Shown here piece after piece: positions 22,478 to 63,688 of a DNA stretch of 64,000 nucleotides. The stretch's first letter is position 1, and the number at the start of each line of letters is the position of its first letter. Both the position numbers and the translations under genes were made by a program. The stretch is from Parapedobacter pyrenivorans (GTDB lineage Bacteria; Bacteroidota; Bacteroidia; Sphingobacteriales; Sphingobacteriaceae), in the NCBI RefSeq assembly GCF_014636865.1, contig NZ_BMER01000002.1, forward strand, positions 618,292-682,291, read 5' to 3'. A model generated the notes under the pieces. It was given only the letters and a program-made list of their open reading frames with translations, did no database searches and was not told the origin of the DNA.

Positions 22478-22563
22478 CTTTATGCGCTAAAGCTATAATT
22501 GGCTGCTTGCTATAATAGAGACCCACAACAGCCGGAAGAGGAGTAATCAAATTGAGAAAAAAA

Positions 22564-23166: not shown

Positions 23167-23350
23167 TCGCTTCAAAGACCCGTAGATAGTATACACTACC
23201 GTCCATCGTCCTGCTCAGTCACCAGAACGTATAATTGGCTAATCCAAAGGTATAGTTGATTCTAACGAAAACCTAACCGCATTTTTTCCTAAGCCGACTG
23301 TTATATATCACATAACAGAGAAAACAAGATTAGTTATAGGCAAAAGAAAG

Positions 23351-36711: not shown

Positions 36712-36779
36712 CAAAAGTAGAAGCTAGGTATGCGTGCTCCCTAAAGGGGATTTGCAACTGCTTAAATTATTTTAGCTAA
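36712..36779 (-). promoter_or_regulatory. Promoter and conserved element C upstream of the SDR operon
   Basis: Minus-strand TACTTTTG (plus 36712-36719) matches the Bacteroidota -7 consensus TAnnTTTG, 35 bp before the SDR start. No TTTG -33 box is seen. Instead, element C (plus 36741-36776) begins 21 bp further upstream: CTAAAGGGGATTTGCA and then TAAATTATTTTAGC, keeping the same spacing between halves as elements A and B. It overlaps the stop codon of the upstream AraC gene (36772). Reads as an activator-dependent promoter. Confidence 0.65.
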
Positions 36780-37665
36780 TATTGGGCAGTCGCATAGGTT
36801 TCAAATGTACCGACTGGTACTGGCTGGGGGTGAGCCCGACGATTTTCTTGAATTGGTTGTTGAAATGCGGGAAATTGTTGAAACCGGTTTCAAAGCACAC
36901 CTGCGAAATACTCAATTGATCGTCGATGAGTAGTTTGCATGCATTACCGATTTTTATTTCATTGAGAAATTGCGTGTAGGTTTTATTGGTCCGGGATTTG
37001 AAATAACGGCAAAAGGCGGTCACACTCATATTGGCCACGGAAGATACTTCTTCCAATGTCGGATTTTCGACATAATGGTCCATAATATACTGGTACACCC
37101 TGTTCATGCGCTCACAATCATCCTCATCAACGTATCGCGCAAATGAATCACTCGACAAACATTCATATTCACCCGTGCTCGCCATGATTTTCAGGATTGT
37201 CAGCAAATCAATGATTTTGTCAGCCCCGTCTTTATGGTCATCAAACCGTTGGATATGGTGCTTCAATTTTTCCTTGGTGGCGCCTTTGAATTTAATCCCT
37301 TTCTTGGATTGGTGCAGCAGTCTCCGGATCAGGGCCATATCGGGAATGTTCCAAAAGTCTTTACCAAGGAAGTCTTCTTTGAAATAAACCACGATCGCTT
37401 TCGAGCGCAATATCGAATCTTTGCGGTAATAATCGGGATCACTCCGGTATAAATGCGGAATATTAGCACCGTAAAAAACCAAATCTCCCGACCGAAATCG
37501 CTGCATACTATCACCAACAAACCGCATACCCGTACCTTCTTGCACCAGCATGATTTCGTAATCGGGATGGAAATGCCAGGAAGGAAAAAAATACGGTTCG
37601 TCCACTGACATAATCTGGAAGGATTTGTCTTTCTGCGTGTTGACTATTTTTAACAACGGCTTCAT
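36772..37665 (-). CDS. AraC-family transcriptional regulator (cupin sensor, HTH C-terminus)
   Basis: Start set at the ATG at 37665 (MKPLLKIV), which aligns with the start of its paralogue at 37841; the frame extends to 37713. About 297 residues. An AraC-type cupin sensor comes first (SFQIMSVDEPYFFPSWHFHP, RFVGDSMQRFRSGDLVFYG, ANIPHLYRSD), and a double helix-turn-helix last (LEEVSSVANMSVTAFCRYFK; ISQVCFETGFNNFPHFNNQF; GLTPSQYQ). It presumably binds a sugar or sugar acid and activates the surrounding operons. A TATATTTG -7 box (plus 37733-37740) lies upstream. Confidence 0.92.
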   Translation of the reverse strand: MKPLLKIVNTQKDKSFQIMSVDEPYFFPSWHFHPDYEIMLVQEGTGMRFVGDSMQRFRSGDLVFYGANIPHLYRSDPDYYRKDSILRSKAIVVYFKEDFLGKDFWNIPDMALIRRLLHQSKKGIKFKGATKEKLKHHIQRFDDHKDGADKIIDLLTILKIMASTGEYECLSSDSFARYVDEDDCERMNRVYQYIMDHYVENPTLEEVSSVANMSVTAFCRYFKSRTNKTYTQFLNEIKIGNACKLLIDDQLSISQVCFETGFNNFPHFNNQFKKIVGLTPSQYQSVHLKPMRLPNIS

Positions 37666-37732
37666 GGCATGGTCATTAATGACTAAGCGTATTACAGGTG
37701 GTACAATTGGCAAAAAACAATAAAGTTTTATA

Positions 37733-37780
37733 CAAATATATTATTTTTCCCAAATTCACCGCCTAAAGTAGATTAGCAAT
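37733..37780. promoter_or_regulatory. Intergenic operator D and -7 box between the divergent AraC genes
   Basis: Minus-strand TATATTTG at 37733-37740 fits TAnnTTTG for the leftward AraC gene. Plus-strand CCTAAAGTAGATTAGCAA (37762-37779) matches the second half of element B (CTAAAGTATCTTAGCAA) with two substitutions, 21 bp upstream of that box. It lies 60 bp before the rightward AraC start. Suggests autoregulation. Confidence 0.55.
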
Positions 37781-37840
37781 CGTATAAACTTTCTTATCAA
37801 GTAGCCTGCGGTAAGGAATATTCACCCTTATCTTTATGCC

Positions 37841-38719
37841 ATGAAACCCATCCTCCGAAAAATAGACCCCGGTACTGATTACTCCTTCAGTGTACGTCAA
37901 GATATCCATCCTTATCTGTATAATCGCTGGCACTACCACCCCGAAGTAGAACTTACTTTTATACGCAAGGGCAACGGTATCCGCCTGGTTGGCGACAGCA
38001 TGCAACCTTTTGAAGACGGTGACCTTGTACTGCTGGGAGCAAATGTTCCCCATTTATGGCGCAGTGATTCCAGTTACTTCAAAGAGTCCTCGAAGTTGAC
38101 CATCGAGGCCATTGCCATCCATTTCAAAGTTGATTTTTGGGGCGACTTCTTCTTAGCATTGCCTGAAATGACACCGATAAAGAAGTTGCTTGAAGGGGCA
38201 CAACGCGGTATGCGGATTACCGGCCGTACGCATGCCTTGGTGGCAGCAAAGATGGAAGAGATTATCCATATGCAGGGTGTGGCGCGGATTGAACAACTAC
38301 TTCATATGCTGAATCTCATCGCGCTACCGGGCGAATGTGAACCCCTTTCCAGTACAGGGTTCGTCCAAACATACAACGCCAACAACACCGATCGCATCGA
38401 CCAGATTTTCAACTATACCTTCACTCACTTTAGAGAACCGATGTCTATTGAAAAAGTGGCCGGGGCTGTGAACCTAAGTCCACATTCATTCTGCAGGTAT
38501 TTCAAGACCCGTACATTGAAAACCTATTGGCAGTTCCTATTGGAAGTGCGCATAGGATACGCCTGCAAACTATTGATTGAAAATAAATGGAACATCTCCG
38601 AGGTCGCCTTTACATCCGGATTCAGTAATCTATCCAATTTCAACCGACAGTTCAAAGCGGTCATGCAATTGACCCCAATACAATATGTAAAAGCATATAC
38701 CACCAACCCTCAGTTATAG
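37841..38719 (+). CDS. AraC-family transcriptional regulator, paralogue of the divergent neighbour
   Basis: 292 residues. Cupin sensor with NRWHYHPEVELTFIRKGNG, RLVGDSMQPFEDGDLVLLG and ANVPHLWRSDSSYF; C-terminal AraC HTH pair with MSIEKVAGAVNLSPHSFCRY and FTSGFSNLSNFNRQFK followed by LTPIQYVKAY. It is collinear with the regulator at 36772-37665 over its full length and clearly paralogous, so the pair arose by duplication and probably senses two related ligands or works as activator and modulator. Its 3' end overlaps the convergent FAH gene by 10 bp (38710-38719). Confidence 0.92.
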   Translation: MKPILRKIDPGTDYSFSVRQDIHPYLYNRWHYHPEVELTFIRKGNGIRLVGDSMQPFEDGDLVLLGANVPHLWRSDSSYFKESSKLTIEAIAIHFKVDFWGDFFLALPEMTPIKKLLEGAQRGMRITGRTHALVAAKMEEIIHMQGVARIEQLLHMLNLIALPGECEPLSSTGFVQTYNANNTDRIDQIFNYTFTHFREPMSIEKVAGAVNLSPHSFCRYFKTRTLKTYWQFLLEVRIGYACKLLIENKWNISEVAFTSGFSNLSNFNRQFKAVMQLTPIQYVKAYTTNPQL

Positions 38720-49206: not shown

Positions 49207-51429
49207 TTAATTCCAGCCTGGATTTTGCCAGTCCGTACCAGTATGGCTTTGCATTTTATTGATTTCTCCCTGCGGGATGGGGTAGAGATAGAATTTATCC
49301 TTGAAAGATTCCCGCTCGAACCCGATCCGTTCGTAGGTAAAGGAGTCGCCACCCACATTGGTAATTCTCATTCCGGTGACATACCGTTCGACGTCCGCCA
49401 TAATTTTCCATCGGCGCACATCAAAATAACGATGGCCTTCGTAGGCGAGTTCAACACGGCGTTCGTTGCGGTAGCGTTTCTCGAATTCATCTTTCGATAA
49501 CCCGGCGGGGAGGTCGGGCATATTTACCCTCCGGCGGATGGCATTGACCGCGTCGCGTGCGCTCATGGACATCCCATTGCCAATGTTGATGGCGGCATCC
49601 GGGTTACCGGTCGATTGATAGGCAGCTTCTGCGAAGTTAAGATACATTTCGGCAAGGCGGAACATGCGGATTTCACCATCGGCGTCATTGTCACGTCCCG
49701 ACTTCCAGTTGTTGTACTTTCTCAGGTAGTAACCGGTATGGGTGGCGCGCCGGTCGGTCGAGGAAATCGCATCTTTTCCACCGACATAGCTTTGAACGGG
49801 GTCCGCTGAAGTCGCTTCGACCCTCACGTTGATTTCCATATCTTTCACGTAAACGATATTTCCTCCATCTGAACCGACGTCGAACCGCAAGGAGTGGTTC
49901 GCCGCACCCCATGTCCACCAGCTTTCGCTCCTGTAGGGAGTCAAATCCAATTCGAAATCGATCCATTCGTCCGATTTATGAAGGACCACATTTTCGGGGG
50001 TTGATTGTCCTCCGGCAGCACCGGGTGCCTGGAAAAAGAACTGGGCATTGGTAATCTCTACGTTACTTTTGTATTTGAATTTAAGCAATATCGAACCGGA
50101 AGAAGCGTTGATGTCACTGCCCAGGGTTGTGGTTGGCGCATTAGGATCGCCACCGAGGGTTTCGATGCGAAATGCGCCATCTTCTTCCGTGATTGAAATA
50201 TTATTTCCGGAGGTCGTCATTTCAAGCGGATAATGGTCATCCCTTGACGGTTCGGTCGATGCGCCTAAATCCCGTTTTGCACCATTGAAGTAAACGGTTG
50301 CGTAGAAACGGGGATCCCTTCCCGCATAGGGGTTTTCTGGATCATACCCCGATGCCGCGTTGATGATGGGCTGCAGGTGCTGGGGGTCCGAATAGCCTGT
50401 AATCGGAGGCAGTCCGGTAGCCTGCATCTCATAGCTATCCACCAGCTCCTGTGTAGGGCTTGCCCCCGCTGAGTTTTGCCCCGGGGTGGAGGGCATTCCA
50501 TGGCTTCCCCATACATTTACTTTCGGTCCGCCGTAAATGGTCTCCTTATCGCGGGCACGCTGCTCGTCGTGCTGTGTAATAAAATAGAGTTCATAGGAGT
50601 TCTGAGCAATATCCTCGTTAGGAACGTCCGTCCAAAGTTCGTAACCATTAGTCAAAAGATTGGACAACGCGTTGCCCGTAATTTCAGCGGCCCCGCTCCA
50701 TGAATAGGTGCCGTCGGCGAATGAAGGACTGGCAGCGTAAAGTGTCGCTTCAGAACGGATGGCTTGCACCACCGCCCGGTTCATAATCCAGTTTTCTCCC
50801 ACGCGTACAGTCCAAGAGAAACCTAATGATGATTCGGGTGCGCGCATCGCGGCATCGCAATCAGCCAGTATTTGCGTGACAACGGCCGATACCGGTGAAC
50901 GACCATCCTGGCTGAAGTCGTGGTCGATCTCGTAAGCGGCGGTGACCAATGGAACTGCGCCGTAGCGTTTGATTAACTGTAGGTAATAAAGCGCCCTGAG
51001 CGTATGAGCCTGTGCTTTCCAAGAGGAGATCTCATCTTCGAGCGAGGCTAGGTCTTCGGCTGAAACACCTTCGATCCTTTCAAGAAAGATATTGCATTTG
51101 CGGATAGATTGATAAATGTCGCTCCATGGCTGCCCGTCCACGTTGGTGTAATTGGCCGCCGAAAAAGCATCGGCGTACCATAGGGAAGGGAGTGATCCTT
51201 GGAACACCCGTTCCGAACTGTGCGCTTCATCGGTAAGTGCCGAACGGTTGATATCCGGAAAGATGCGGGAATTGTAGCACGCATTCAGGTACCCCCTTAC
51301 TCCGTTCTTGGTTTGGAACAGTTCATCGAGCGAAGAGCGCCCGTCATACTCAAGCTCCAGCAGTTTGTTGCAGGAAGGCGTAAAACCGGCCACCAATGCG
51401 ATTATTGAGAAGATAATATATTTTTTCAT
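49207..51429 (-). CDS. SusD/RagB-family lipoprotein with inserted beta-sandwich domain
   Basis: About 740 residues from the ATG at 51429 (an upstream TTG at 51438 is in frame), against the usual 500-650. Lipobox PSCN (Cys20 from this start). SusD helices occupy about 30-400 and 555-740 (MFRLAEMYLNFAEAAYQ, RRVELAYEGHRYFDVRRWK, NPGWN end). Between them, about residues 402-537 (nt 49819-50226), lies an extra beta-rich module (ISITEEDGAFRIETLGG, ILLKFKYKSNVEITNAQFF, DEWIDFELDLTPYRS, LRFDVGSDGGNIVYVKDMEI) that looks like a carbohydrate-binding jelly roll. It pairs with the SusC at 51443, 14 bp upstream. Confidence 0.9.
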   Translation of the reverse strand: MKKYIIFSIIALVAGFTPSCNKLLELEYDGRSSLDELFQTKNGVRGYLNACYNSRIFPDINRSALTDEAHSSERVFQGSLPSLWYADAFSAANYTNVDGQPWSDIYQSIRKCNIFLERIEGVSAEDLASLEDEISSWKAQAHTLRALYYLQLIKRYGAVPLVTAAYEIDHDFSQDGRSPVSAVVTQILADCDAAMRAPESSLGFSWTVRVGENWIMNRAVVQAIRSEATLYAASPSFADGTYSWSGAAEITGNALSNLLTNGYELWTDVPNEDIAQNSYELYFITQHDEQRARDKETIYGGPKVNVWGSHGMPSTPGQNSAGASPTQELVDSYEMQATGLPPITGYSDPQHLQPIINAASGYDPENPYAGRDPRFYATVYFNGAKRDLGASTEPSRDDHYPLEMTTSGNNISITEEDGAFRIETLGGDPNAPTTTLGSDINASSGSILLKFKYKSNVEITNAQFFFQAPGAAGGQSTPENVVLHKSDEWIDFELDLTPYRSESWWTWGAANHSLRFDVGSDGGNIVYVKDMEINVRVEATSADPVQSYVGGKDAISSTDRRATHTGYYLRKYNNWKSGRDNDADGEIRMFRLAEMYLNFAEAAYQSTGNPDAAINIGNGMSMSARDAVNAIRRRVNMPDLPAGLSKDEFEKRYRNERRVELAYEGHRYFDVRRWKIMADVERYVTGMRITNVGGDSFTYERIGFERESFKDKFYLYPIPQGEINKMQSHTGTDWQNPGWN

Positions 51430-51442
51430 TATCGTCAAATTT

Positions 51443-54400
51443 TTAGAATTTAATACTTAACCCCACGTTGTATAAACGATATACAGGAATGCCTTCGATA
51501 CCACCATCATAGTGTCCTTCTGGCCCATAAATATCATGATCCAGCTTATCCCATGTCAGTAGGTTTTGCCCACTCAGAAAGAACCTTATGCCGTTGTAGG
51601 CTTTGAACGTATACCCCATTTCCAGGTTTTTTAACCGGAGATAGGACTTATCTTCGACAAAGAAATTGCTGGGTTCATGATTGGAATTTTTCTTGGCAGA
51701 CAATGCAGGATACGTGATTTTCTCTCCATTGGCGTAGCGATCGGCTGTCCAGGCGGTTTTGTGCCATTCGGAATACATGCCTTCAAAATTATACTCTACG
51801 CGGCTATTGGACATATCGATTGTCCAATAATCAGCAATTCCCTGGAAAAGAAAATTCAGGTCAAAGTTTTTGTACTTGAATCCACCATGGAAAGCATAGA
51901 AGAAGTTCGGTAATGTGCCATTTCCGAGGGGTACTTTATCCTTGTCATTGATTTTACCGTCGGCATTCAGGTCATAGTATTTAAGATAACCGGGTCTGGG
52001 TGTACCAATCTCATAGGTCAAACCACTGTTATCAATCTCATCCTGGCTGTTGAAATATCCATTGCCGTTATGGTCATCGACCATGTAACCCCAATCCTGT
52101 CCAATCGGATATCCTTCCTGACGGAGGCGATAGGCATAGTCCTCTGCCCGTTCGCTTTCGTCCCAGAAAATGATTTTATTTTTGTTGTAAGCTAGCCATC
52201 CACCAAAAGACACCGTCAGGTCACGGGTAACATCTCTTGTGAAATCGAGCGCCACCTCGTATCCTTTGTTTTCGAAGACACCAACGTTCGTCCTTGGGTA
52301 ATTTCCGAGAGGAACCCCTTGGTAGTCGGGTGTTTTTGATATAGCACTGGTAACACCGTTTTCCGTTCGCTCATTATATGCATCGACAGATAGTGTCACA
52401 TTATTAAACAACGAAAGGTCGACTCCCAGATTCTTCTTTGTGATGATTTCCGGATCGAGGAGCGGATTGGCAACCTGGCCTTCGTTTACGTTATGGCCGC
52501 CCAGAAATCCAAATCCACCACCGGTCAACGTCACGTTGTCGAGGTAGACGTACCTGCCAATTCCTCGGTCGTTACCGGTTTTACCCCACGAACCACGGAA
52601 TTTCAAGTACGTTAGCACGGGATTCGCTTTTAAAAACGACTCGTTGGTGGCCACCCAGCCCGCAGAAATAGCGGGGAAGACGGTGAAGCGGTTCTGGCGG
52701 GAGTATTGTTCCGAACCGGAATAGCCCAGATCGAATTTAACTAAGTACCGGCTGTCAAATCCATAAGTCGCACTCACGCCGGAGTTTACCCGTTTGTAAG
52801 GCAATCCGGCACCGGCCTTATTGAGGTGCTGATAAAAGCTGTAAGCCATGGCGCTCACAGCGTGTATATTTTTGAACTTCCTATGATAACTCAAGACACC
52901 TTTATAGTTCAGGTTGTAATAAAATTGGGTGCTGCTTCTGTACTGCAAGGGCGTATTGACCTGTGTCCGTATCTTCTCGAACTCCAACTCGGAATAATCT
53001 TTGGTACGTACCCATTCTTCATAGGTACGGTTTACGAACAGTCCTTTGACCGCGTTGGTTTGGTAGCCGTAGTTGCCGCTCAGGCTCAACCCCGGTGTCA
53101 GAAAGCTGAGGTCGAGTTTGGGTGCAAACTGTGCGTAAATATTGGTGACGGTGTACTGGTCGTAACCAAGACGGTTGATGACGGCCCAGGAGGTGATTGG
53201 TTCAGTTTCCGTAACGACTACTTCACCGCCCGAGACCTCACCGGTTTCGGGGTCTTGTACCAGCGGAGTGGTCGGCCCATAATTATAGGGTGGTAAGGTG
53301 AAAAAACGATACCAGATTCGCTTCGCGAACCCGTCCCAGTTGCCCCCATAGGTTAATTCCACCGCATGACCGCCCGGCGTTCTTTCCCGCTTGACGTTCC
53401 CACTGAGATTCACCCCAATAGAAAAGTATTTAGATAAGTTGACATCCACGTTTGAACGGATGTTTGCCCATACAAAACTGTTGTTGGGGTTATAATCAGT
53501 AGTTGTCGGATCTACCTTCCACATGCCATCCTGATGCAGTACATTCACGTTGGTGTAGAAAACGGCATGGTCCCCGCCACCTGTTAGATTAAGATTCATC
53601 CTACTCATTTGAGTAAGGTCTTTGGCATTCATTGCCCGCCAGTTATTGTCGGGGAAATAATCCCTGTCTTCGCCCGCGACGAATCCATCTTCAGCAACTT
53701 GGCTGAAATAGGAGTACGCTCCGTTGCCATCGTTGTAACCCGCCTGGTTACGCAGCCGCACAAAATCGGCCGAACCGATGTGGGGCGGGGTGGTCGTCCG
53801 TTGTTCAAAAGTTCGATTAATTTCGGCGTCTATTCTCAGCGGCTGTTTTATGCCCCGCTTGGTCGTGATGACAATCACACCATTAGCTCCGTGGATCCCG
53901 TACAACGCCTGGGCGGATGCATCTTTTAATACGCTGATGGATTCGACCTCGTTGGCCGTGATGTACTCAAAAAGCTCATTGCCATTGTAATCATACGGGA
54001 ATCCATCGATGACAATCATAGCCGTGCCACCGTTGGGAGAGGAGCTGCCTCTCAGCCAAAGTTCCGTGTTGGTTCGTGCCGGCTCCGAATAGGTCTCTCG
54101 GGTAAACAATCCCGGTAAACGTCCGGCAAGTGACATCGAGAGGTTCCCAACGGGAGAGCGACGTAACTCTTCACTGGTCACTTCGGCAGTGGAAGCGGTA
54201 ACGTCCTTTTTTTGTTGGGTATAATTGCCGAAGTATAGTTTTTCATCCAGGTCATATGTTTCGGCACGTTTCATGGTCACATTCAACGCCCCATCGGTAA
54301 CCTCATTTGTTTGCGACAGGTACCCGCGCATCGAGAAGACCAGGTGTTTGCTATCGTCGTTGATTCGCACCTCATAATCACCGTTTTTGTCGGTCGCGGC

Positions 54401-54553
54401 AACATTTTTACCGTTGGCTGAGGTGACGGTTACCCCCTGCAGTATTGAGCCATATTCATCTTTGACCGTCCCGTTGACCTGCGCTTGGAGGAACCCTGCC
54501 CACAAAAGCAACGAAACTAATAGATGTATGGTTTTATTTGTTAAATTATTCAT
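51443..54553 (-). CDS. SusC/RagA-family TonB-dependent transporter (second pair of the locus)
   Basis: 1036 residues. Signal peptide ending at FLQAQ; carboxypeptidase-D-like domain about 25-105 (VNGTVKDEYGSILQGVTVTS). The usual acidic TonB-box phrase is altered (DLDEKLYFGNYTQQKKDVTAS). Plug with SSPNGGTAMIVIDGFPYDYN and LKDASAQALYGIHGANGVI; barrel to residue 1036 ending LSIKF. No STN domain. It lies 30 bp downstream of the first SusD and directly upstream of the second SusD, so the tandem SusC-SusD-SusC-SusD set is probably one mRNA from 59746. Confidence 0.94.
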   Translation of the reverse strand: MNNLTNKTIHLLVSLLLWAGFLQAQVNGTVKDEYGSILQGVTVTSANGKNVAATDKNGDYEVRINDDSKHLVFSMRGYLSQTNEVTDGALNVTMKRAETYDLDEKLYFGNYTQQKKDVTASTAEVTSEELRRSPVGNLSMSLAGRLPGLFTRETYSEPARTNTELWLRGSSSPNGGTAMIVIDGFPYDYNGNELFEYITANEVESISVLKDASAQALYGIHGANGVIVITTKRGIKQPLRIDAEINRTFEQRTTTPPHIGSADFVRLRNQAGYNDGNGAYSYFSQVAEDGFVAGEDRDYFPDNNWRAMNAKDLTQMSRMNLNLTGGGDHAVFYTNVNVLHQDGMWKVDPTTTDYNPNNSFVWANIRSNVDVNLSKYFSIGVNLSGNVKRERTPGGHAVELTYGGNWDGFAKRIWYRFFTLPPYNYGPTTPLVQDPETGEVSGGEVVVTETEPITSWAVINRLGYDQYTVTNIYAQFAPKLDLSFLTPGLSLSGNYGYQTNAVKGLFVNRTYEEWVRTKDYSELEFEKIRTQVNTPLQYRSSTQFYYNLNYKGVLSYHRKFKNIHAVSAMAYSFYQHLNKAGAGLPYKRVNSGVSATYGFDSRYLVKFDLGYSGSEQYSRQNRFTVFPAISAGWVATNESFLKANPVLTYLKFRGSWGKTGNDRGIGRYVYLDNVTLTGGGFGFLGGHNVNEGQVANPLLDPEIITKKNLGVDLSLFNNVTLSVDAYNERTENGVTSAISKTPDYQGVPLGNYPRTNVGVFENKGYEVALDFTRDVTRDLTVSFGGWLAYNKNKIIFWDESERAEDYAYRLRQEGYPIGQDWGYMVDDHNGNGYFNSQDEIDNSGLTYEIGTPRPGYLKYYDLNADGKINDKDKVPLGNGTLPNFFYAFHGGFKYKNFDLNFLFQGIADYWTIDMSNSRVEYNFEGMYSEWHKTAWTADRYANGEKITYPALSAKKNSNHEPSNFFVEDKSYLRLKNLEMGYTFKAYNGIRFFLSGQNLLTWDKLDHDIYGPEGHYDGGIEGIPVYRLYNVGLSIKF

Positions 54554-54583: not shown

Positions 54584-56479
54584 TTACCACCCCGGATTTT
54601 GCCAGTTCTCGCCGGTCAGACCGATCATGATATTCGCGTCATCCAGCGGTATGGGAAACCACAAAAACTTACGCGAATAGCTCAACCGCTCGCGTGACAC
54701 CGGACCTCTGGCATACGTGTAGGTTCCGTCATCGTTGCGCGTAATATGTGCTGCGGTAACCCACCGATCGGTTTTCTCAAGGTCTTCTTCAGGCTTGTGC
54801 CAGCGACGGACGTCAAAGTAACGATGTGCCTCAAACGCAAGTTCCACCCGGCGTTCATTACGAATACGAAGCAGGAGTTGATCCTTAGAAAGCCCCTGCG
54901 GCAATTCAAGCATATTTACGCGTCGGCGAATGGCATTGATAGCCTCGTACGCTTCGTTCAAGTGACCGGCTTCCGCAGCCGCTTCTGCAAGATTCAGATA
55001 AATCTCTGCTAATCTCATTACTTTCGGATAGGCCATTCCAACGTTCACGACTTCCTGTCCAGCATTCGGGTGAAGAAATTTCCGCAGGAAATAGCCGGTG
55101 CGCGTAGCCTTCCGAGTAGTCGGGTGTCTGCCTGTCTGGGGTTCGCCCTCCCAAGTCGCAATTACGCGTGTTCGATAGCCCCTGCCTGCAGGATAATTTT
55201 CGGCACTTTCCGTAGTTTCATCGAAAGGCCAGTAGCATTTACGTTTTGAGCCGTTGTAGTAGATAGAGGCGTAAAATCGCGGATCGCGGTTTTCGTAGGG
55301 ATTTTGCTCATCATATAGCGTATTACTGGGGTTGAAGTTGGGCTGTAGGTGGGTAACTTCATCCGTGTATGGTTTGGACAGGTCAAGGATCGGTTCGCCG
55401 TCAATAGTTTCAAAACAATCAACGATTTCCTGCGATGGACAGGTACCGGCCTTGTATCCTCCTTGAGCCCCCACTCCTTCTGTGCCGAAACCATCTTGAC
55501 CCGCATTGGTTTGATAAATCGTCTCTTTATCGGTCGGGTTACTTTCGTAAGCCATGCTGTTACAGAAATATTCGTTGAAAAGCTTGGCGGCATCGTTTGG
55601 TAAAAACACATCCGGGTTGTCGTTCCAAGACGCGAAATTAACGTTGTTGTATAATTCATACCCATTTGCTTTCAGGTTTGCAAGAGCTTGCCTATTAATT
55701 TGATAAGCTTCTTCCCAGTAGTCGTTTCCTTCGTTGTACAATGGACTTGCAGCATAGAGCGACATCCTTGACTTAATCCCCTCTGCAACTGCTTTGGTGA
55801 GTCGGAATGCCTCGGCGTTGGAAGTAATGCGCCAGGGTAATTCCGCAGTCGACAGCGCGACATCACAATCTTCGATAATAAATTGCACCACATCGTAATA
55901 GGAGCTTCTGACCGTTTGGGAAAAATCATCTTCGTAACTGTGTGCTTCCCTGACAATAGGGAGCGGGCATCCGAAAAACTTAAGCAGTACCATGTAATAA
56001 TAAGCCCGCAGCAAATGTGCTTCGGCCTTCCATCGCGCACGATTGGTCTCACTCTTTACCTTTGCCCCGTCGATATTGCCTAGGAATATCGAGCATTTAC
56101 GGATGCCTTCCCACATGCGTACCCAATACTTGCCATTGCCGGCATTGTCCCATTCTTCATTAAAATGAGAGGCAGCCGAGACATTCCCGCTATACAACTT
56201 TCCTGAAGTGATCCATGCTTCGGCCTCCGCATCCGTATCCCAAGATTCATCGCTCCAGTCTACTGGTCCACGCATATGAAAGAAATAGGCTTTCCCTTCT
56301 CCGGGGATGTATGCGTAACAGGAATTCATATAGGCGGCGGTTTTTTCATCATCTTGAAAAACGTCCTCGAGGGCAATTTTACCATCGGGAGCCTGGTCTA
56401 AAACATCAGAGCATCCACTAAGTAATATAGACGCAACCAATGCCAGTGTTTTTGTGATTTTAGATATATGATTAGTCAT
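54584..56479 (-). CDS. SusD/RagB-family lipoprotein (first pair of the locus)
   Basis: 631 residues; lipobox LSGC with Cys23, then SDVLDQAPDGKIALEDVF. TPR helices and C-terminal signature (RRVELAFEAHRYFDVRRW, IPLDDANIMIGLTGENWQNP) are clear. The C-terminal phrase is close to that of the SusD at 49207 (NERRVELAYEGHRYFDVRRW), but the latter carries the extra insert. Sits 21 bp after the first SusC. Binds glycan at the cell surface for import by that SusC. Confidence 0.94.
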   Translation of the reverse strand: MTNHISKITKTLALVASILLSGCSDVLDQAPDGKIALEDVFQDDEKTAAYMNSCYAYIPGEGKAYFFHMRGPVDWSDESWDTDAEAEAWITSGKLYSGNVSAASHFNEEWDNAGNGKYWVRMWEGIRKCSIFLGNIDGAKVKSETNRARWKAEAHLLRAYYYMVLLKFFGCPLPIVREAHSYEDDFSQTVRSSYYDVVQFIIEDCDVALSTAELPWRITSNAEAFRLTKAVAEGIKSRMSLYAASPLYNEGNDYWEEAYQINRQALANLKANGYELYNNVNFASWNDNPDVFLPNDAAKLFNEYFCNSMAYESNPTDKETIYQTNAGQDGFGTEGVGAQGGYKAGTCPSQEIVDCFETIDGEPILDLSKPYTDEVTHLQPNFNPSNTLYDEQNPYENRDPRFYASIYYNGSKRKCYWPFDETTESAENYPAGRGYRTRVIATWEGEPQTGRHPTTRKATRTGYFLRKFLHPNAGQEVVNVGMAYPKVMRLAEIYLNLAEAAAEAGHLNEAYEAINAIRRRVNMLELPQGLSKDQLLLRIRNERRVELAFEAHRYFDVRRWHKPEEDLEKTDRWVTAAHITRNDDGTYTYARGPVSRERLSYSRKFLWFPIPLDDANIMIGLTGENWQNPGW

Positions 56480-56500: not shown

Positions 56501-59500
56501 TCAGAATTTGATATTGGTCCCAAAGCTAAAAATAGCGGTCTGTGGGTAGCCGATCGAATCGTCGTTTTCAGGATCGAGGTGGGTCGGCCTGAATTTGGGT
56601 GACCAAGTAAAAGCATTCTGCCCATTCATAAAAACCCGCATATTGGAGATTCCTATTACCCTTAGTGAATTGGCCGGGAGTGTATAGCCGACTTCAAAGT
56701 TTTTAAGTCGGAACAAATCACGATCAAAGACAAAGAACGAGTTTGCTCGGTGGTTCACTCCCTCCTCAGAGTGAAGTGCCGGGTAAGTAATCTCTTCACC
56801 ATTTTTCCAACGCTCTTCGGTCCATGCATTTTTATGATAAGGGAAAAAAGTCCCGTCAAGCGTTGTTTCATAAGTCCCCTGCGAGGCAAAAGAGGAATTG
56901 AACTTGCCCAGTCCCTGGAAGAAGATATAGGCGTCAAATGCTTTCCATTCAGCGGAGAATGAAAAGCCATAGCTGTACCGGGGAATGTTTCCTACCCCGA
57001 TGGGAGCCTGGTCCTTGTCATCAATCAGATTGTCCCCGTTCAAGTCTTTATAGACGAAATCCCCAGGACGTGGTGTGCCGAATCCGTATGTAACGCGTTC
57101 CGGATCCGCTACCGATTCGGCGTTCCAGTACCCGCCATCTTGGTCCCAATCGATGAGATATCCCCAAGCCTGCCCGATCGGATAACCTGTTCCACGGTAT
57201 TTGTACGCATAGGTATCATCGCGCGGTACCTCATCAACGTTTGTGCGTTTATTCCGGTTATACGAAAGCTGTCCCCTAAAGTGGAGAAACAGGTCGTCGC
57301 TGACTCGCTTGTTGTACCCCAATTCAATTTCATATCCCCGATTCAACACTTCGCCCATATTTACTTTCGGTATATTGTTTATTGGAACACCTTGCCAGAT
57401 TGGGATACTATTCCGCTGGAGAAGGATCTGTGAGCGCTTTTCACCGAAAATATCAATTTGCCCCGTGATGTCCTTGATAATAGAAAAGTCTACACCTACG
57501 TTGTATTTATTGGCGATTTCCCAGGTAAGCATCCGATTGCCCAACAATCCTTCGTTGACCCGTTGCCCGGCAGCGAGGCTACCGGAGAATCCTCCACCGC
57601 CAACCGTAATATCGTCTAAATAGAGAAAGCGAAGTGATCCCATTTTATCGTTTCCTACTTTCCCGTAAGAAGTCCTGATTTTCAGGAGTGTGACGTAGGG
57701 ATTGTCTTTTAGGAACGGTTCTTGGCTGATTACCCATCCTATCGATCCCGAGGGGAAGAAGCCGAATCGTCCTTCAGGGGAGAACTGTTCTGATCCATTG
57801 TAACCGAAGTTGATTTCAGCAAGGTAGCGCGTATCGAAGTCGTAAGTGGCGCGTCCCGCAAAGCCGAACACATTAAAAGGAATATCGGCTCCCCCCGAAT
57901 CCCAGTAATCGCGATCCGCGCGGACCATGCCTGTTACGTTATGTTTTCCAAAAGACCGGTTATACAGCAGTTGTCCCTGAAAATTGACATTGTATTTTGC
58001 CCCCTGGTCATAACTTAACGAAAAGTTGTCTTGTTTCAGCTGGAATACAGCGAATGTGAGTTCATCTGTCTCCGGGTTAATAAATGCTTGGTATTCGGTT
58101 TGATTATTATTGCCTCTTACCATGTTGTTTCCGACGGCATCGTACGAAATCATCCCTTTCATGGTAAGCCCCTTGGTGATTCCTCCCAAATCGAAATCGA
58201 GTCCGAAAGAGGAGTTCAGGTTGGACCGGGTTTGAAGATCATAGCCATACCAGTTCATGATCGTGAAAGGTGAACGGTCGGCATAGTGTCCGCTGGTCAA
58301 ATAAGTTGGATCTAGCGGGCGATTCGGGGGGACGCCGTATCCTGGAATGGTTACAGGTCCCGGCGTCATTGGTAAAATGGTTTGTGCCTGATACATCATA
58401 TCCCGTACCAACCAGTTTCGGTCACCACCGTACGTCACCCCAGGATTTGGCATATTTACTTTCTCAATGTAGGTACCTAAGTTCAGGAATGCTTTGAGCC
58501 ATTTGTTCACCGTATAATCCACATTTGACCGGAATGAATAGCGATCCAACTTAAACGAGGGGTCATATTTCAGGATATCTTCCGGGAGGGTATGCATATT
58601 GCCTCCCTGATTCAGGTAACCGACATTCAGGAAATAGGTGACTTTATCGGTCCCCCCGCTCATATTGGTATTGAGGGTTGTCTGCGGTGACCATTTTTTT
58701 ACAAGCATCCTGTACCAGTCATTATTCGGATACATCCACTTTCTTAGGGCAGCCTTTTCTTCATAATCGGGTGCGGACGGATCTAATCCGGCAAGCGGAT
58801 TTTCGAACTTGGCGATAATCTCGGGGGTAAAAGGTGCTGTAAATCCGTCATTTTCCAAAGCGGTGTTGCGCAGTTTCATGTACTCAACCGATCCCGGCAT
58901 CTCCGGTTCGCGGGTGAGTCGCGAGTAACTTTGGGTAACATTGACGGAAAGTTCTGGTTTCCCAATTTTACCACGCTTCGTGGTGATGATCAGTACACCG
59001 TTTGCACCGCGAACGCCGAATATCGCAGTTGCAGAGGCGTCTTTCAACACTGAGATTGATTCCACCTCGTTGATATCGATGGTACGGATATTGTCCCTTG
59101 GTACGCCATCGATCAGGATCAACGGGTTGGTGCCGTTGATCGTGGCAGCCCCTCGAAGATACATGGTCGCATCGTCGACCCCCGGCTGCCCGCCCACGCG
59201 TTGCATGGATGTAAGACCGGCAACACGACCGGCGAGTGCGTTGGCAAGGCTGGCCGACGATGATACGCGTAACTCTTCGGGACTGACCGAAGAAATGGCG
59301 CCGGTGACCGTCACCTTCTTCTGCACACCGTAGGCAACGACCACGACTTCATCCAGCCCCACGTTATCTGGCATCAACTGGACATTCATGACTGTAGTGT
59401 TACGCACGGGCAGCTCCCTGTCAATATAGCCAACTAAGCGAAATAACAGGGTATCCCCAACGCGTACACCCGTCAACGAAAATGTGCCTGCCTGATCAGT

Positions 59501-59746
59501 AGATACGGCAGCAGATCCGTGTTTGACGCTGATGGTTACGCCAGCCAACGGCCCTTGCTCATCGCTCACTTTTCCACCTATGTTCAGCCCCTGCTGCGCC
59601 AATAGGGCTACCGGTGCTAAAATAAAGGCAAAAACCAGAACGGATAATGGCCACGAATCTTTAAAATTTCGGACGCGTTTAAGTTTAACCATAGTTACAT
59701 AATTTAAAGTTAGTTTGATGAATAATTTAGTCCCATATGTGTTCAT
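56501..59746 (-). CDS. SusC/RagA-family TonB-dependent transporter (first pair of the locus)
   Basis: 1081 residues from the ATG at 59746; a second ATG at 59692 gives a more normal signal peptide (VLVFAFILAPVALLAQQ). A GGAG 12 nt before the first ATG leaves the choice open. Carboxypeptidase-D-like domain about 50-130; TonB box region LDEVVVVAYGVQKKVTVTGA; plug with SusC signature INGTNPLILIDGVPRDN and LKDASATAIFGVRGANGVL; barrel ending SFGTNIKF. No STN. First gene of the minus-strand operon; its long upstream region carries phased repeats and a TAGTTTTG box. Confidence 0.95.
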   Translation of the reverse strand: MNTYGTKLFIKLTLNYVTMVKLKRVRNFKDSWPLSVLVFAFILAPVALLAQQGLNIGGKVSDEQGPLAGVTISVKHGSAAVSTDQAGTFSLTGVRVGDTLLFRLVGYIDRELPVRNTTVMNVQLMPDNVGLDEVVVVAYGVQKKVTVTGAISSVSPEELRVSSSASLANALAGRVAGLTSMQRVGGQPGVDDATMYLRGAATINGTNPLILIDGVPRDNIRTIDINEVESISVLKDASATAIFGVRGANGVLIITTKRGKIGKPELSVNVTQSYSRLTREPEMPGSVEYMKLRNTALENDGFTAPFTPEIIAKFENPLAGLDPSAPDYEEKAALRKWMYPNNDWYRMLVKKWSPQTTLNTNMSGGTDKVTYFLNVGYLNQGGNMHTLPEDILKYDPSFKLDRYSFRSNVDYTVNKWLKAFLNLGTYIEKVNMPNPGVTYGGDRNWLVRDMMYQAQTILPMTPGPVTIPGYGVPPNRPLDPTYLTSGHYADRSPFTIMNWYGYDLQTRSNLNSSFGLDFDLGGITKGLTMKGMISYDAVGNNMVRGNNNQTEYQAFINPETDELTFAVFQLKQDNFSLSYDQGAKYNVNFQGQLLYNRSFGKHNVTGMVRADRDYWDSGGADIPFNVFGFAGRATYDFDTRYLAEINFGYNGSEQFSPEGRFGFFPSGSIGWVISQEPFLKDNPYVTLLKIRTSYGKVGNDKMGSLRFLYLDDITVGGGGFSGSLAAGQRVNEGLLGNRMLTWEIANKYNVGVDFSIIKDITGQIDIFGEKRSQILLQRNSIPIWQGVPINNIPKVNMGEVLNRGYEIELGYNKRVSDDLFLHFRGQLSYNRNKRTNVDEVPRDDTYAYKYRGTGYPIGQAWGYLIDWDQDGGYWNAESVADPERVTYGFGTPRPGDFVYKDLNGDNLIDDKDQAPIGVGNIPRYSYGFSFSAEWKAFDAYIFFQGLGKFNSSFASQGTYETTLDGTFFPYHKNAWTEERWKNGEEITYPALHSEEGVNHRANSFFVFDRDLFRLKNFEVGYTLPANSLRVIGISNMRVFMNGQNAFTWSPKFRPTHLDPENDDSIGYPQTAIFSFGTNIKF

Positions 59747-59967
59747 ATTGGCAATGCATCTCCATTTAAATTTGAATCAATGCTTTTCTATAAGAACGCT
59801 AATCCTAATTTACGGAGCTGAAATAATGCCCCCAAGCAATGCGGGTTAAAGCACAATGCGCGGCCACTTGTTAGCAAGATAATTGTTGATTGTTCTGAGC
59901 AGGTACGCAATGTGCACGCTGCGTTAGTAAACGTATTTAATTCATACAATTTGGTTTATAACTAGCA

Positions 59968-60028
59968 CAAAACTAAACAGGAGTTATTTGTGCGGCAACC
60001 TGTACTATGCCGTAGCGACCTGCCCTAT
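59968..60028 (-). promoter_or_regulatory. Leftward promoter with tandem 20-bp-phased operator repeats
   Basis: On the minus strand, ATAGGGCAGGTCGC (60028-60015) and ATAGTACAGGTTGC (60008-59995) are direct repeats matching at 11 of 14 positions, exactly 20 bp apart. TAGTTTTG (59975-59968), a -7 TAnnTTTG box, begins 19 bp after the second repeat. No TTTG -33 box is evident, in line with an activator-dependent promoter for the tandem SusC/SusD operon. Confidence 0.6.
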
Positions 60029-60124
60029 CCTGTTGGTGTATTAAATACATTAAGGAGTAAGCTGTTACTGGAGCAGAATAAGCTGCAAAACTATTGGCAT
60101 GGGGTTGGTTAGTTTACGTTCAGG

Positions 60125-60174
60125 ACGGTGCGGGTTGCATCAGTACGGTACGGGTTGCCGCCGGATTATTTTTG
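60125..60174 (+). promoter_or_regulatory. Rightward promoter with tandem 20-bp-phased operator repeats
   Basis: ACGGTGCGGGTTGC (60125-60138) and ACGGTACGGGTTGC (60145-60158) differ at one position and are 20 bp apart. TATTTTTG (60167-60174), matching TAnnTTTG, begins 8 bp later. The repeats resemble, in opposite orientation, the leftward pair (consensus A-Y-R-G-K-R-C-R-G-G-T-Y-G-C), so the same protein probably controls both operons. Confidence 0.6.
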
Positions 60175-60370
60175 GTTACATTCGCTAGTTATAAACCAAT
60201 AATAGACAGATTATGACTTTGCTCCGTGTTAACTTTCGCGAAAATTACCGGATGATCATGTGTGCTGAAATTTGTATGTATTGAAACAAAATTCATTAAA
60301 AAACATGATTTTGACTATAAAAGAAATACTGGCAGTCAATCAAATTAAAGGGATCGCCTTATTTTAGCAG

Positions 60371-61840
60371 ATGAATAGCAAGATTTTTTGTGGGACGATC
60401 TTAACGCTGACAATGGCTTACGGTTGTTCAAATTCCAATATGAGCCATCCGGAAGAAGGATCCGATAAGCACGAAGCTGACTATACTGATGTTTTTACGA
60501 TCAAGACCGGTTGGGATATTTATGGGGGTGGCGGATACCGTTATGGCCCTTCTATGCTTACAAACGGCGATGGAACTATCGATGTGTGGTTTGCTGCACC
60601 CGGGGATGTTTTCGGGCAACGAAGACAGACTCATCATCCAACGGGTATGCAAAGCCCCGTAAGCCTTCATGGTCAAGATGTGGCCGCGCAGCGTTTCTCA
60701 AGCGATCATGCTTTTTTTGGGCTGGGTGTGATTTGTCCGAACTGGGGTACCACGAACAGTAGCCTTACTTTATCACTTTTTCTGTGGAAGGGCGACTATG
60801 TTACCAGCATAGCGGCTCCCGCCATTGCGCGTCATCGGTATGAAAATTTTGTTGATAATCAGGACTTGCAACTAAAACGCGAGGAGATGTTCGCCGCAGG
60901 TGAATACCTTTGGGTATTGGACCAGCCATCCGGAACAGCTGGCGTTTGGCGAAAAGAGGGTGATGTTGAAGGGGTAATCAACTACCTGAATGGAGGAGAA
61001 ATGAAGGGTACTAGCTTTCAGGCTTATCTGTTGCGTGATCGATCCTCTGGCGGAGCTTATTGGGATCAGGCGGCTTACCGGCGGACTGCCGACGGAGGCG
61101 AAACCTGGACAGAAGAACAGATGGTATTGAAGCCAACCGAGTTTTCACGGGATCAATTATCGATCTGTGACCCCGGAGCGATTAAAGTAGGAACGTATTA
61201 TTACATCGGGTATACTTCTACCGAAGACGTCAGAGGTTTATTCAATCACGCCTACGTAGCAAGATCGACGTCGCCAACCGGCCCGTGGGAGAAATGGGAT
61301 GGCAACGGCTGGGAAGACAATCCGCAACCCATTGTCACATTTGATGGGGATGCCAATGCCTGGGGTGCGGGAGAACCGTCTATTGTGGTAAATAACGATA
61401 CGTTGTTTTTTTATTATACATGGACGGATAAGGATAAGAATGAAACACGCGTGGCTATGGCAGATGCAACTGATGAACACTGGCCATTGCATCTCAATTT
61501 TCTCGGAACTGCAGTAGATAAGACCGCGATTGATGGCGCTGACCATTGTGATGTGAAATATCGCACAGACTTAAAATGTTATCAGGCAATCCACACAGCC
61601 TCAAGGTTGACTGCCAACAGCTATATTATTCTGTGGGAATCGGTGGATGGAATCCATTTTTCGAAAAAGGCTGAGTTACGGGATCACTTGGAGCCTTATT
61701 TGCACAATTGTGGGTGGAGCGGCGATACGCAAGGCCACATCAACCCCGAAACACCACAGTTTTTATCCTATGCCTATGGCCCTGATTGGGGAAACTGGAA
61801 AACCAAATGGCATCCAATTGATTTCGGAAAGGCAAAATAA
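60371..61840 (+). CDS. Beta-propeller hydrolase-like lipoprotein (GH43/sialidase-type fold)
   Basis: 489 residues with signal ending in a lipobox-like AYGC (Cys19). Propeller-like blades carry YRYGPSMLTNGDGTIDVWFA, AYRRTADGGETWTEEQM (a BNR/Asp-box-like blade), SICDPGAIKVGTYYYIGYTS and WGAGEPSIVVNNDTLFFYYT. Asp in CDPGAI and Glu in GAGEPS are plausible catalytic carboxylates as in GH43-type five-bladed propellers, but the family cannot be fixed. First gene of the rightward unit, opposite the tandem SusC/SusD operon, 42 bp before the GH71/99-like gene. Probably hydrolyses the glycan imported by those transporters. Confidence 0.65.
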   Translation: MNSKIFCGTILTLTMAYGCSNSNMSHPEEGSDKHEADYTDVFTIKTGWDIYGGGGYRYGPSMLTNGDGTIDVWFAAPGDVFGQRRQTHHPTGMQSPVSLHGQDVAAQRFSSDHAFFGLGVICPNWGTTNSSLTLSLFLWKGDYVTSIAAPAIARHRYENFVDNQDLQLKREEMFAAGEYLWVLDQPSGTAGVWRKEGDVEGVINYLNGGEMKGTSFQAYLLRDRSSGGAYWDQAAYRRTADGGETWTEEQMVLKPTEFSRDQLSICDPGAIKVGTYYYIGYTSTEDVRGLFNHAYVARSTSPTGPWEKWDGNGWEDNPQPIVTFDGDANAWGAGEPSIVVNNDTLFFYYTWTDKDKNETRVAMADATDEHWPLHLNFLGTAVDKTAIDGADHCDVKYRTDLKCYQAIHTASRLTANSYIILWESVDGIHFSKKAELRDHLEPYLHNCGWSGDTQGHINPETPQFLSYAYGPDWGNWKTKWHPIDFGKAK

Positions 61841-61882: not shown

Positions 61883-63688
61883 ATGAATAAATTAACACGT
61901 AATTTAATCATCCTCAGCGGGCTGGCATTCCCCACGATGCTTCATGCCCAATTCATCAACAGCGACCAGTGGGCGATGACCGATGCACTGGGGCGAAAAG
62001 CGAGCGGATACGAGACTGCCGGCGACAAAAAAGATGAAAAGTTCGTCGCGATGTTCTATTGGACATGGCACCAAGGCAACGATGACACGACTTATCAGGT
62101 TAAGAACATCACGGACATTGTCCGGGAACACCCTGAGGCCATGAAGGATTATAACCATCCGGCCTGGGGTACCAAAAGACCCGGCTTTTTTTACTGGGAA
62201 CAACCCTTATTTGGCTATTACAAAACGACCGATCCATGGGTATTGCGCAAACATGCAGAGATGCTGGCGGATGCCGGAGTAGACGCGGTTTTTTTTGATT
62301 GTACAAACGGAAGTCTTACTTGGCAGGATTCCTATGAAGCGCTGCTGAGGACCTGGGACCAGGCGCAGCGAGACGGTGTAAATGTTCCCAAAATTGCATT
62401 CATGTTGCCTTTTGGTCCGGCACCGCACTCCCTGATTTCCTTGCGACAGCTTTATAAGGATCTCTATAAGCCGGGGCGTTATAAAAATCTTTGGTTTGTC
62501 TGGAAAGGAAAGCCTTGTATTATGGGATATCCAGACAACCTCGAAGATTCGCAAACGGATCGTGAGATCGCATCTTTTTTCACCTTTCGTCCCGGGCAAC
62601 CGGATTACGTGGACGGCCCTAAACGAAATGATCAATGGGGATGGCTGGAAAATTATCCCCAGCACGGCTACGTAAAAGGAAGCGATGGCAAATTCGAACA
62701 AGCCACCGTAGGAGTTGCACAAAATGCAGGACCGGAGACCGACGGTCATTGCAGTGCTTTTAATCTACCGGGTACCTACGGACGTAACTTCAGTCAACGC
62801 AATGGGTTCGATCCACGGGTTGACGGTTACCTATACGGTTGGAATTTTCAGGAGCAATGGGATGGGGCTAGGGAAATTGATCCCGAGCTGATATTCGTGA
62901 CGGGGTGGAACGAATATATTGCCGGACAGTGGTTGCCCGAACATAATTGGACAGGCGACCCGTTTTCGTTTGTCGACCAATTCGATTGGGCGCACAGTCG
63001 TGATATCGAGCCGAATAAGGGATGGGGCGATAAAGGCGACGTATACTATCTTCAATTAATAGACAATGTGCGTAAATTCAAGGGGATGTCGCCTTTGGAA
63101 AAAGTATCGGAATCCAAAACCATACGGATCAATAAGTGGACGGACTGGGACAATGTAACCCCCTATTTCAAGCACTATAAAGGCAATACCCTGCACCGCG
63201 ACCATCGGGGACGGTACGATCAATATTACACAAACACGACCGGAAGGAACGATATCCTAGGCGCGAAGGTAGCGCGGGATAATGAACGGTTGTATTTTTA
63301 CGTCGAAACTGTCGATAAGCTAACCTCGCCGCAAGACCGGAACTGGATGATGCTGTTCATCGATACCGACCGTAACAAAGCCACCGGATGGAACGGTTAC
63401 GATGTGATTGTTAACCGGGTGAATCCGCGGGATAACCAAGCGGTGGTGGAACGAAATGTAGGCAACCGGTGGGAATGGGAACAAGTGGCACAGGTGCCCT
63501 TTTCGATCGATCGGAATAAACTCGCGTTCGGCGTGGATAAGCGATTGCTTGGACTGGAAGGAAAGGTGGCGGATATCGAATTCAAATGGAACGACAACAT
63601 GCAGGAAAATGGAAACATTATGGATTTCTATGTGAATGGGGATACAGCCCCCGGCGGACGGTTTAATTTTATCTATTCTGCTCCTTAA
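61883..63688 (+). CDS. GH71/GH99-like TIM-barrel protein with C-terminal CBM9-like domain
   Basis: 601 residues, Sec signal ending at MLHAQ. A TIM-barrel-like domain (about 30-400) has VAMFYWTWHQGNDDTTYQVK, HAEMLADAGVDAVFFDCTNG, YLYGWNFQEQWDGAREIDP and IFVTGWNEYIAGQWLPEHN; the GWNEY segment recalls the catalytic strand of GH99/GH71-like enzymes. The last ~180 residues form a CBM9-like beta-sandwich (GAKVARDNERLYFYVETVDK, MMLFIDTDRNKATGWNGYD). Co-directional with the propeller gene at 60371, and followed by a strong bidirectional terminator. Exported glycoside hydrolase; linkage specificity unknown. Confidence 0.7.
   Translation: MNKLTRNLIILSGLAFPTMLHAQFINSDQWAMTDALGRKASGYETAGDKKDEKFVAMFYWTWHQGNDDTTYQVKNITDIVREHPEAMKDYNHPAWGTKRPGFFYWEQPLFGYYKTTDPWVLRKHAEMLADAGVDAVFFDCTNGSLTWQDSYEALLRTWDQAQRDGVNVPKIAFMLPFGPAPHSLISLRQLYKDLYKPGRYKNLWFVWKGKPCIMGYPDNLEDSQTDREIASFFTFRPGQPDYVDGPKRNDQWGWLENYPQHGYVKGSDGKFEQATVGVAQNAGPETDGHCSAFNLPGTYGRNFSQRNGFDPRVDGYLYGWNFQEQWDGAREIDPELIFVTGWNEYIAGQWLPEHNWTGDPFSFVDQFDWAHSRDIEPNKGWGDKGDVYYLQLIDNVRKFKGMSPLEKVSESKTIRINKWTDWDNVTPYFKHYKGNTLHRDHRGRYDQYYTNTTGRNDILGAKVARDNERLYFYVETVDKLTSPQDRNWMMLFIDTDRNKATGWNGYDVIVNRVNPRDNQAVVERNVGNRWEWEQVAQVPFSIDRNKLAFGVDKRLLGLEGKVADIEFKWNDNMQENGNIMDFYVNGDTAPGGRFNFIYSAP

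Follow-up and report, generated by a model that had tools for sequence, protein, structure and literature searches.

A tandem 18-bp box in a divergent SusC/SusD promoter region of Parapedobacter pyrenivorans, a probable activator operator shared with pectin-related genes of Sphingobacteriaceae

Polysaccharide loci of the Bacteroidota are usually described with a local regulator of their own. HTCS regulators are examples of such local control, and their motifs are described as direct repeats averaging 21 bp apart; one of them, HTCS_Rgu-2, is given as a pair of 14-bp sites separated by 6 bp, which makes a 20-bp period (PMC3878776). For the AraC rhamnose regulators, among them RhaR of Bacteroides, direct repeats with a 21-bp periodicity are reported (PMC3870299), and XylS is described as binding two TGCAN6GGNTA repeats, the second of which overlaps the -35 box by two bases (PMC4225500), all three papers being used here in excerpt. 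The locus examined here has a comparable layout. The window, by which is meant the whole stretch of 64,000 nucleotides that was analysed, contains a divergent region from which an operon with two SusC/SusD pairs runs on the minus strand and an operon for a 489-aa and a 601-aa protein runs on the plus strand (Table 1), and each of these operons is preceded by a tandem pair of repeats.

The divergent promoter region

Between 59968 and 60174 the plus strand carries ACGGTGCGGGTTGC at 60125 and ACGGTACGGGTTGC at 60145, with a period of 20 and one mismatch, and the minus strand carries ATAGGGCAGGTCGC (60015-60028) and ATAGTACAGGTTGC (59995-60008), again with a period of 20 and with 11 of 14 letters alike. 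An earlier, sequence-only reading of this DNA had described two tandem pairs with a 20-bp period, one per gene and each oriented to its own gene, and both its positions and its letters are confirmed. The plus-strand repeat is longer than was then proposed, at 19 nt (60120-60138 and 60140-60158, 89% alike), and the repeat unit is an 18-bp box, CAGGAyRgTaCAGGTTGC, which contains CAGG-N6-CAGG. Lax chance tests of these repeats are unremarkable: with up to three mismatches allowed, the 14-mer unit is matched 38 times in the window where 28.8 matches would be expected, and at least 38 turned up in 6 of 100 shuffles. The genome scan for the pair that the sequence-only reading had proposed, run with a 25-nt pattern and up to three mismatches, gave 28 matches against 18 for the reversed control, so that the pair does not stand out by number, exact matching being confined to the window. 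The case for the repeats rests on their conservation. It is judged probable that the divergent region is a pair of activator-dependent promoters, each with two tandem 18-bp boxes, the proximal copy of which lies 18-19 nt before a -7 element of the primary sigma factor.

Table 1. Features of the divergent region and its operons in window coordinates; boxes and transcription starts are predicted
Feature	Position	Strand	Remarks
Distal activator box CAGGACGGTGCGGGTTGC	60121..60138	+	plus-strand promoter
Proximal activator box CAGTACGGTACGGGTTGC	60141..60158	+	with TACATTCG as the -7, at about -48 to -31
Earlier -7 candidate TATTTTTG	60167..60174	+	8 nt past box; better letters, position unlike other promoters
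Probable -7 element TACATTCG	60177..60184	+	18 nt past proximal box; from the offset rule
GCTAGTTATAAACCAA, near predicted transcription start	60184..60199	+	perfect copy of 59951-59966
Distal activator box CAGGATAGGGCAGGTCGC	60015..60032	-	minus-strand promoter
Proximal activator box CGGCATAGTACAGGTTGC	59995..60012	-	minus-strand promoter
-7 element TAGTTTTG	59968..59975	-	19 nt past proximal box
GCTAGTTATAAACCAA, near predicted transcription start	59951..59966	-	perfect copy of 60184-60199
First SusC-like outer-membrane transporter	56501..59746	-	TIGR04056, E 2e-244; start probably ATG 59692
First SusD-like lipoprotein	54584..56479	-	PF07980
Second SusC-like protein	51443..54553	-	Plug and CarbopepD_reg_2 domains
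Second SusD-like protein	49207..51438	-	PF07980
489-aa protein, plus-strand operon	60371..61840	+	no Pfam or PDB sequence match at thresholds used
601-aa protein, plus-strand operon	61883..63688	+	no Pfam or PDB sequence match at thresholds used; homologue on C1 (34% identity) likewise preceded by a doubled box

Exact TAnnTTTG is found 18-19 nt past GGTTGC in five of six Parapedobacter promoters, the exception being the plus strand of the window. There TATTTTTG had previously been chosen, giving gaps of 8 and 19 bp, one helical turn apart, and TACATTCG at 60177, one letter off the -7 consensus and adjoining the shared GCTAGTTATAAACC, had been missed. A -7-like element (at least four of the six letters of TAnnTTTG) at 18-20 nt was found at 60 of 63 further box places, which come from 60 stretches hand-picked from 133 matches, a non-random choice that favoured exact and clustered ones; without three chance-like rows and five promoters whose flanks (L190-L193, L199) were already known through their -7 from an earlier search of the genus, the count is 55 of 55. 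From the 64 box rows, L197, L198 and L214 (scores 2, 0 and 2 of 6), read as chance, were left out, and so was the upstream member of the two tandem L225 boxes, in the offset, shuffle, tandem and AACC bin counts alike; the figure of 60 of 63 includes the three chance rows. At least five of the six letters are present at 18-20 nt in 41 of the 60 flanks kept, and after shuffling of these flanks a -7-like element was found in a mean of 12.9 and a maximum of 21 of 60. The mean -7 match peaks at an offset of 19, with the consensus TAnnTT[TA]G, and a form like TACATTCG, TATGTTCG, stands at 19 nt in L195. The conserved spacing of 18-20 nt selects TACATTCG in the window and replaces the former pair of gaps by 18 and 19 nt. 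It is suggested that TACATTCG, rather than the better-matching TATTTTTG, would serve as the plus-strand -7; TATTTTTG is a possible candidate, disfavoured given that other promoters have their -7 at 18-20 nt.

Given that the -7 box spans -12 to -5 (PMC9723704, in excerpt), the 18-bp box would cover about -49 to -32 and its GTTG would lie at the -33 place. The former statement that no -33 box is present stands in so far as there is no TTTG at about -33, a point for which a paper on johnsoniae is also cited (PMC7366714); it does not stand as a description of an empty site, given that the GTTG of the box takes that place. Leader lengths, put earlier at about 190-215 nt, are also revised. Homology of the first SusC protein to that of the congener begins at residue 20 of the listed frame, so that its start is probably ATG 59692 and the minus-strand leader probably about 270 nt long, and the plus-strand leader is estimated at about 180 nt.

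Close to both predicted transcription starts lies a 16-nt inverted repeat (59951-59966 and 60184-60199), missed by the sequence-only reading, whose two arms are the sole exact copies in the genome. Its sequence, GCTAGTTATAAACCAA, was considered as a general leader signal and is weakly supported as such. AACC occurs in 23 of 66 and 22 of 66 promoters in the first two 25-nt bins past the -7, compared with 12 and 8 in later bins, and the 60 stretches taken upstream of SusC genes contain TTATAAAC 7 times where 1.3 would be expected, some genes being counted twice and one occurrence being that of the window. The window gave no match to Rfam at gathering scores.

The 489-aa protein has a weak partial NCBIfam match to a beta-1,2-mannobiose phosphorylase model; among 60 genomes only the protein itself was found, and one scan of genome contigs gave no confirmed relative. 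Together with the 601-aa protein it is possibly a new rhamnogalacturonan-related enzyme. Between 31706 and 49183 the window holds a GH78 rhamnosidase, an altronate/galactarate dehydratase-like protein, an FAA hydrolase, aldehyde and short-chain dehydrogenases, an MFS transporter and a divergent cupin-AraC pair, a set suggestive of a sugar-acid pathway with dedicated regulators, and the cupin-AraC pair is kept side by side in the congeners G003 and G005. A FecR-like and ECF sigma gene pair lies at 21242-23196, upstream of a SusC-like gene.

Occurrence of the box and its target genes

The doubled box was followed in the genome of P. pyrenivorans itself (G000, 5.93 Mb) and in its congener Parapedobacter defluvii (G006). 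A 38-nt pattern of the pair, allowing up to three mismatches, has five matches in 201 family genomes, all of them in these two, and the reversed control has none; the pattern was built after the congener had been seen, and four of the five matches, two of which are the arms of the window, helped to build it. The fifth, at G000:C1:864151, is independent, has no mismatch and precedes a gene whose product is 34% identical to the 601-aa protein of the window, so that genes for two proteins of one family, located on different contigs, have this operator in front of them. In P. defluvii the doubled box at G006:C4:188321 precedes a SusC gene 86% identical to the first SusC of the window. Disappearance of the repeats from relatives that retain the genes had been named as grounds for refutation, and this comparison gave none; the other side of the doubled box in P. 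defluvii has no divergent operon. At G006:C1:785578 there are two divergent SusC genes, with a doubled box toward one and a single box toward the other. Boxes within one mismatch in the P. pyrenivorans genome lie at the two window promoters, at C1:864k, at C1:891k (a TIG/NHL gene) and at C1:1020k (an ECF sigma gene). The SusC ortholog on G006:C4 (L099, L114) is neighboured by predicted GH32-like fructan hydrolases, identified by eye, and by a further SusC/SusD pair, which is accompanied by an HTCS-like regulator.

Single boxes are far more widespread. A search of nine genomes of the genus with the half-box pattern GGTTGC-N17-20-TAnnTTTG was barely enriched overall (61 matches against 32 for the control) and exposed promoters with a single box. 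With one mismatch allowed, the full box is matched 133 times in the family, in 63 of 121 genomes and in 17 of the 25 genera sampled, and the reversed pattern is matched 11 times; 58 of the 121 genomes have no box match, and 130 of the 133 matches lie outside the window. A scan of genome contigs for the box with TAnnTT at 19 nt gave 59 loci, which by name fall to Sphingobacteriaceae or Sphingobacteriales (53), Chitinophaga (4) and Flavobacterium (2); the named genomes include Pedobacter, Sphingobacterium, Mucilaginibacter, Arcticibacter and Parapedobacter, all of which we take to belong to the family. A second box on the same strand scored above all shuffled controls in 8 of 66 promoters, with periods of 20 bp (five, all in Parapedobacter), 21, 22 and 32 bp, the 21-bp case barely exceeding its controls. 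These periods are near whole helical turns, which agrees with the earlier proposal of tandem sites on one face of the DNA. Binding of a dimer to a tandem pair is not supported as a general rule, given that most of the 66 promoters carry one box. At Sphingobacterium locus L231 a PL11 gene and its divergent neighbour have two opposed boxes ahead of them, in the same mirror layout as in the window. The box is not local to the window and is likely to be an operator common to scattered genes of many Sphingobacteriaceae. Listings of the open-licence literature, outside which most subscription journals lie, showed no printed report of the 18-bp box. As a sequence rule, the 18-bp box followed at 19 nt by TAnnTTTG predicts members of the regulon, transcription starts and the likely roles of unknown enzymes, the 489-aa and 601-aa proteins of the window among them.

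The classes of target genes rest on clustering and on Pfam searches of 20 representatives, 19 of which had a match. The first genes past the 63 box places encode SusC proteins (10), ECF sigma factors (10), GH78-like enzymes (6), GH28 enzymes (5) and fasciclin-type lipoproteins (5), followed by TIG/NHL proteins, cytochrome c-domain proteins and GDSL esterases (3 each) and GH106 and GH88 enzymes (2 each); 12 are single cases, including PL11, PL9, GH127, GH2, GH39 and LytTR, two of which (L197, L214) are probably chance, and two places have no assigned frame. Enzymes typical of rhamnogalacturonan and pectin (GH78-like, GH28, GDSL, GH106, GH88, PL11 and PL9) make up 20 of the 63, and Pfam itself names rhamnogalacturonan lyase and rhamnosidase among the target matches. 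Of the 59 named loci, 23 hold a protein of a cluster judged by eye to be SusC, 18 a PL11-like and 13 a GH28-like one. Degradation of rhamnogalacturonan and pectin is, in our estimate, the likely main theme of the box targets. The presence of other targets (ECF sigma, cytochrome c-domain and LytTR genes) means that the signal may be broader or that several regulators may be involved. At L196, L200, L201, L204 and L205, all in congeners, boxes of the same letters, CAGGACAGCACAGGTTGC, are followed at 19 nt by TAGTATTG; in several Parapedobacter species they stand ahead of a cytochrome c-domain gene or of ECF sigma genes, widely conserved targets other than pectin enzymes.

Candidate regulators and rival explanations

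The regulator had been said not to be encoded next to the divergent region, and this is borne out. An AraC-domain profile, run over all window frames of at least 90 aa and over the flanks L037 and L038, returned just two stand-alone AraC genes and no cognate HTCS. Nor could any regulator be tied to the box among the three candidates put to a presence/absence test, all of which failed it. A Reg_prop-type HTCS found near boxes in Sphingobacterium has 52-54% relatives in three congeners and relatives at about 35% in the P. pyrenivorans genome and in P. defluvii, 30 candidates having been scored of 94 and 91, respectively. In G026 an AraC-like frame of 171 aa lies immediately upstream of a box; it is a weak match and was read as a gene remnant. 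A GntR-like protein, recognized by eye, recurs in 5 of the 59 loci.

The box is best read as the likely site of a class II activator, given its near-exact spacing to the -7 and its position on the -33 region. Such a protein would bind the box beside the sigma factor and recruit RNA polymerase upon a pectin- or rhamnose-derived signal, and a second, tandem box would bring in a second protomer, on the same face of the DNA, and raise occupancy. As the sequence-only reading had proposed for the window, it is likely that one activator serves both operons, and one and the same protein may do so in all the genomes. Less firmly, the activator may be of the AraC type, either stand-alone or hybrid two-component, given that CAGG-N6-CAGG would provide contacts 10 bp apart and that most tandem units follow each other at 20-22 bp, in the manner of XylS, the AraC rhamnose regulators and HTCS. 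It is tentatively suggested, as a possibility which we hold to be somewhat against the odds, that an unlinked single master activator runs rhamnogalacturonan and pectin use across Sphingobacteriaceae via the 18-bp box at numerous dispersed loci, partly via ECF sigma factors that would drive further SusC/SusD genes, and that the box is doubled in Parapedobacter at SusC and hydrolase promoters. If true, a two-tier cascade would stand in place of the usual control of one locus by one regulator, and a box common to dispersed pectin loci and to genes for transporters and ECF sigma factors in 17 of 25 genera would amount to a family-wide regulon with a remote regulator.

Several other explanations have to be weighed, two of which concern the identity of the protein. 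HTCS-like genes lie near boxes in the Sphingobacterium loci L274, L302, L316 and L340 and in L333, in Pedobacter sp. KBW06 (L306) a GH78-like gene and a divergent HTCS-like gene have a box between them, and HTCS motifs have the same two-turn tandem layout (PMC3878776, in excerpt), which raises the possibility that HTCS of the local type bind the box, with a different paralogue in each lineage. This is unlikely: AraC- or HTCS-like genes, AraC genes included in the count, occur in only 13 of 150 fetched box loci (some places counted twice), the Sphingobacterium HTCS has no close relative in the P. pyrenivorans genome among the candidates scored, and it would be odd for one box sequence to be served by unrelated paralogues. 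It is considerably less probable that the regulator is a local AraC protein encoded by one of the two genes at 36772-38719, about 22 kb away. Both are cupin-AraC genes that stand in the same cluster among sugar-acid catabolism genes and the GH78 rhamnosidase; nevertheless, their relatives of 78-79% and 61-62% are found in G003 and G005, genomes that lack the 38-nt pair and have 1 and 4 single-box matches, and P. defluvii, which shares the doubled box, has best relatives just 44% and 43% identical.

The remaining explanations concern the nature of the box. As a repressor operator it would block the polymerase at -33, a region that the box does cover, and DeoR-family rhamnose regulators use imperfect direct repeats with a periodicity of 10-11 bp, like CAGG-N6-CAGG (PMC3870299, in excerpt). 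This is improbable given that the -7 follows at an almost constant distance of 19 nt, which repression does not require, and that the -33 place has no conserved TTTG, as would suit a promoter dependent on an activator. ECF sigma genes at 10 of 63 box places, a cluster typed by one Pfam representative, would suit a scenario in which box and -7 together would be read by an alternative sigma factor of the ECF type. There is little to recommend this, given that the -7 consensus TAnnTT[TA]G closely resembles the one used by the primary sigma factor and that the upstream element, at 18 bp, exceeds the length of an ECF -35 element. Furthermore, the motif ascribed to ECF sigma factors in F. psychrophilum has a CGT box instead (PMC9723704, in excerpt). 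Finally, the two arms of the window could be an inverted duplication whose likeness carries no functional message, given that the 41-nt arms are 71% complementary and share a perfect 16-nt stretch. This is very improbable, given that the spacer letters differ between the arms while the boxes stay alike, that nearly all box matches lie elsewhere and that most of the 66 promoters have no tandem partner. An activator acting from the box remains the preferred reading.

Comparison with described systems

The Bacteroides HTCS operators resemble the window in that SusC/SusD and rhamnogalacturonan genes are preceded by direct repeats spaced by about two helical turns, a likeness of layout. The two-site feature is present in the window with its period of 20 and is clear in 8 of the 66 promoters; unlike HTCS operators, the box mostly occurs singly, its regulator in most cases lies away from the genes and its targets are spread over many loci. 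With RhaR of Bacteroides there are in common the direct repeats and the rhamnose-related targets. RhaR regulons, as described in the available part of the source, are mostly local, with one to several operons per genome, whereas polysaccharide enzymes, SusC proteins and sigma genes are the targets here. XylS and its promoter Pm, likewise known from an excerpt, differ in the letters of the motif, in the sigma factor and in having a tandem unit, which is usually absent here. Nevertheless, the promoters examined share with XylS/Pm a unit with two contacts 10 bp apart, the arrangement of such units in tandem and the placement of the proximal unit on the -35 region. By their sequence features alone, namely CAGG-N6-CAGG, periods of 20, 21, 22 and in one case 32 bp, and an offset of 18-20 nt to the -7, they have the layout of an AraC/XylS-type operator.
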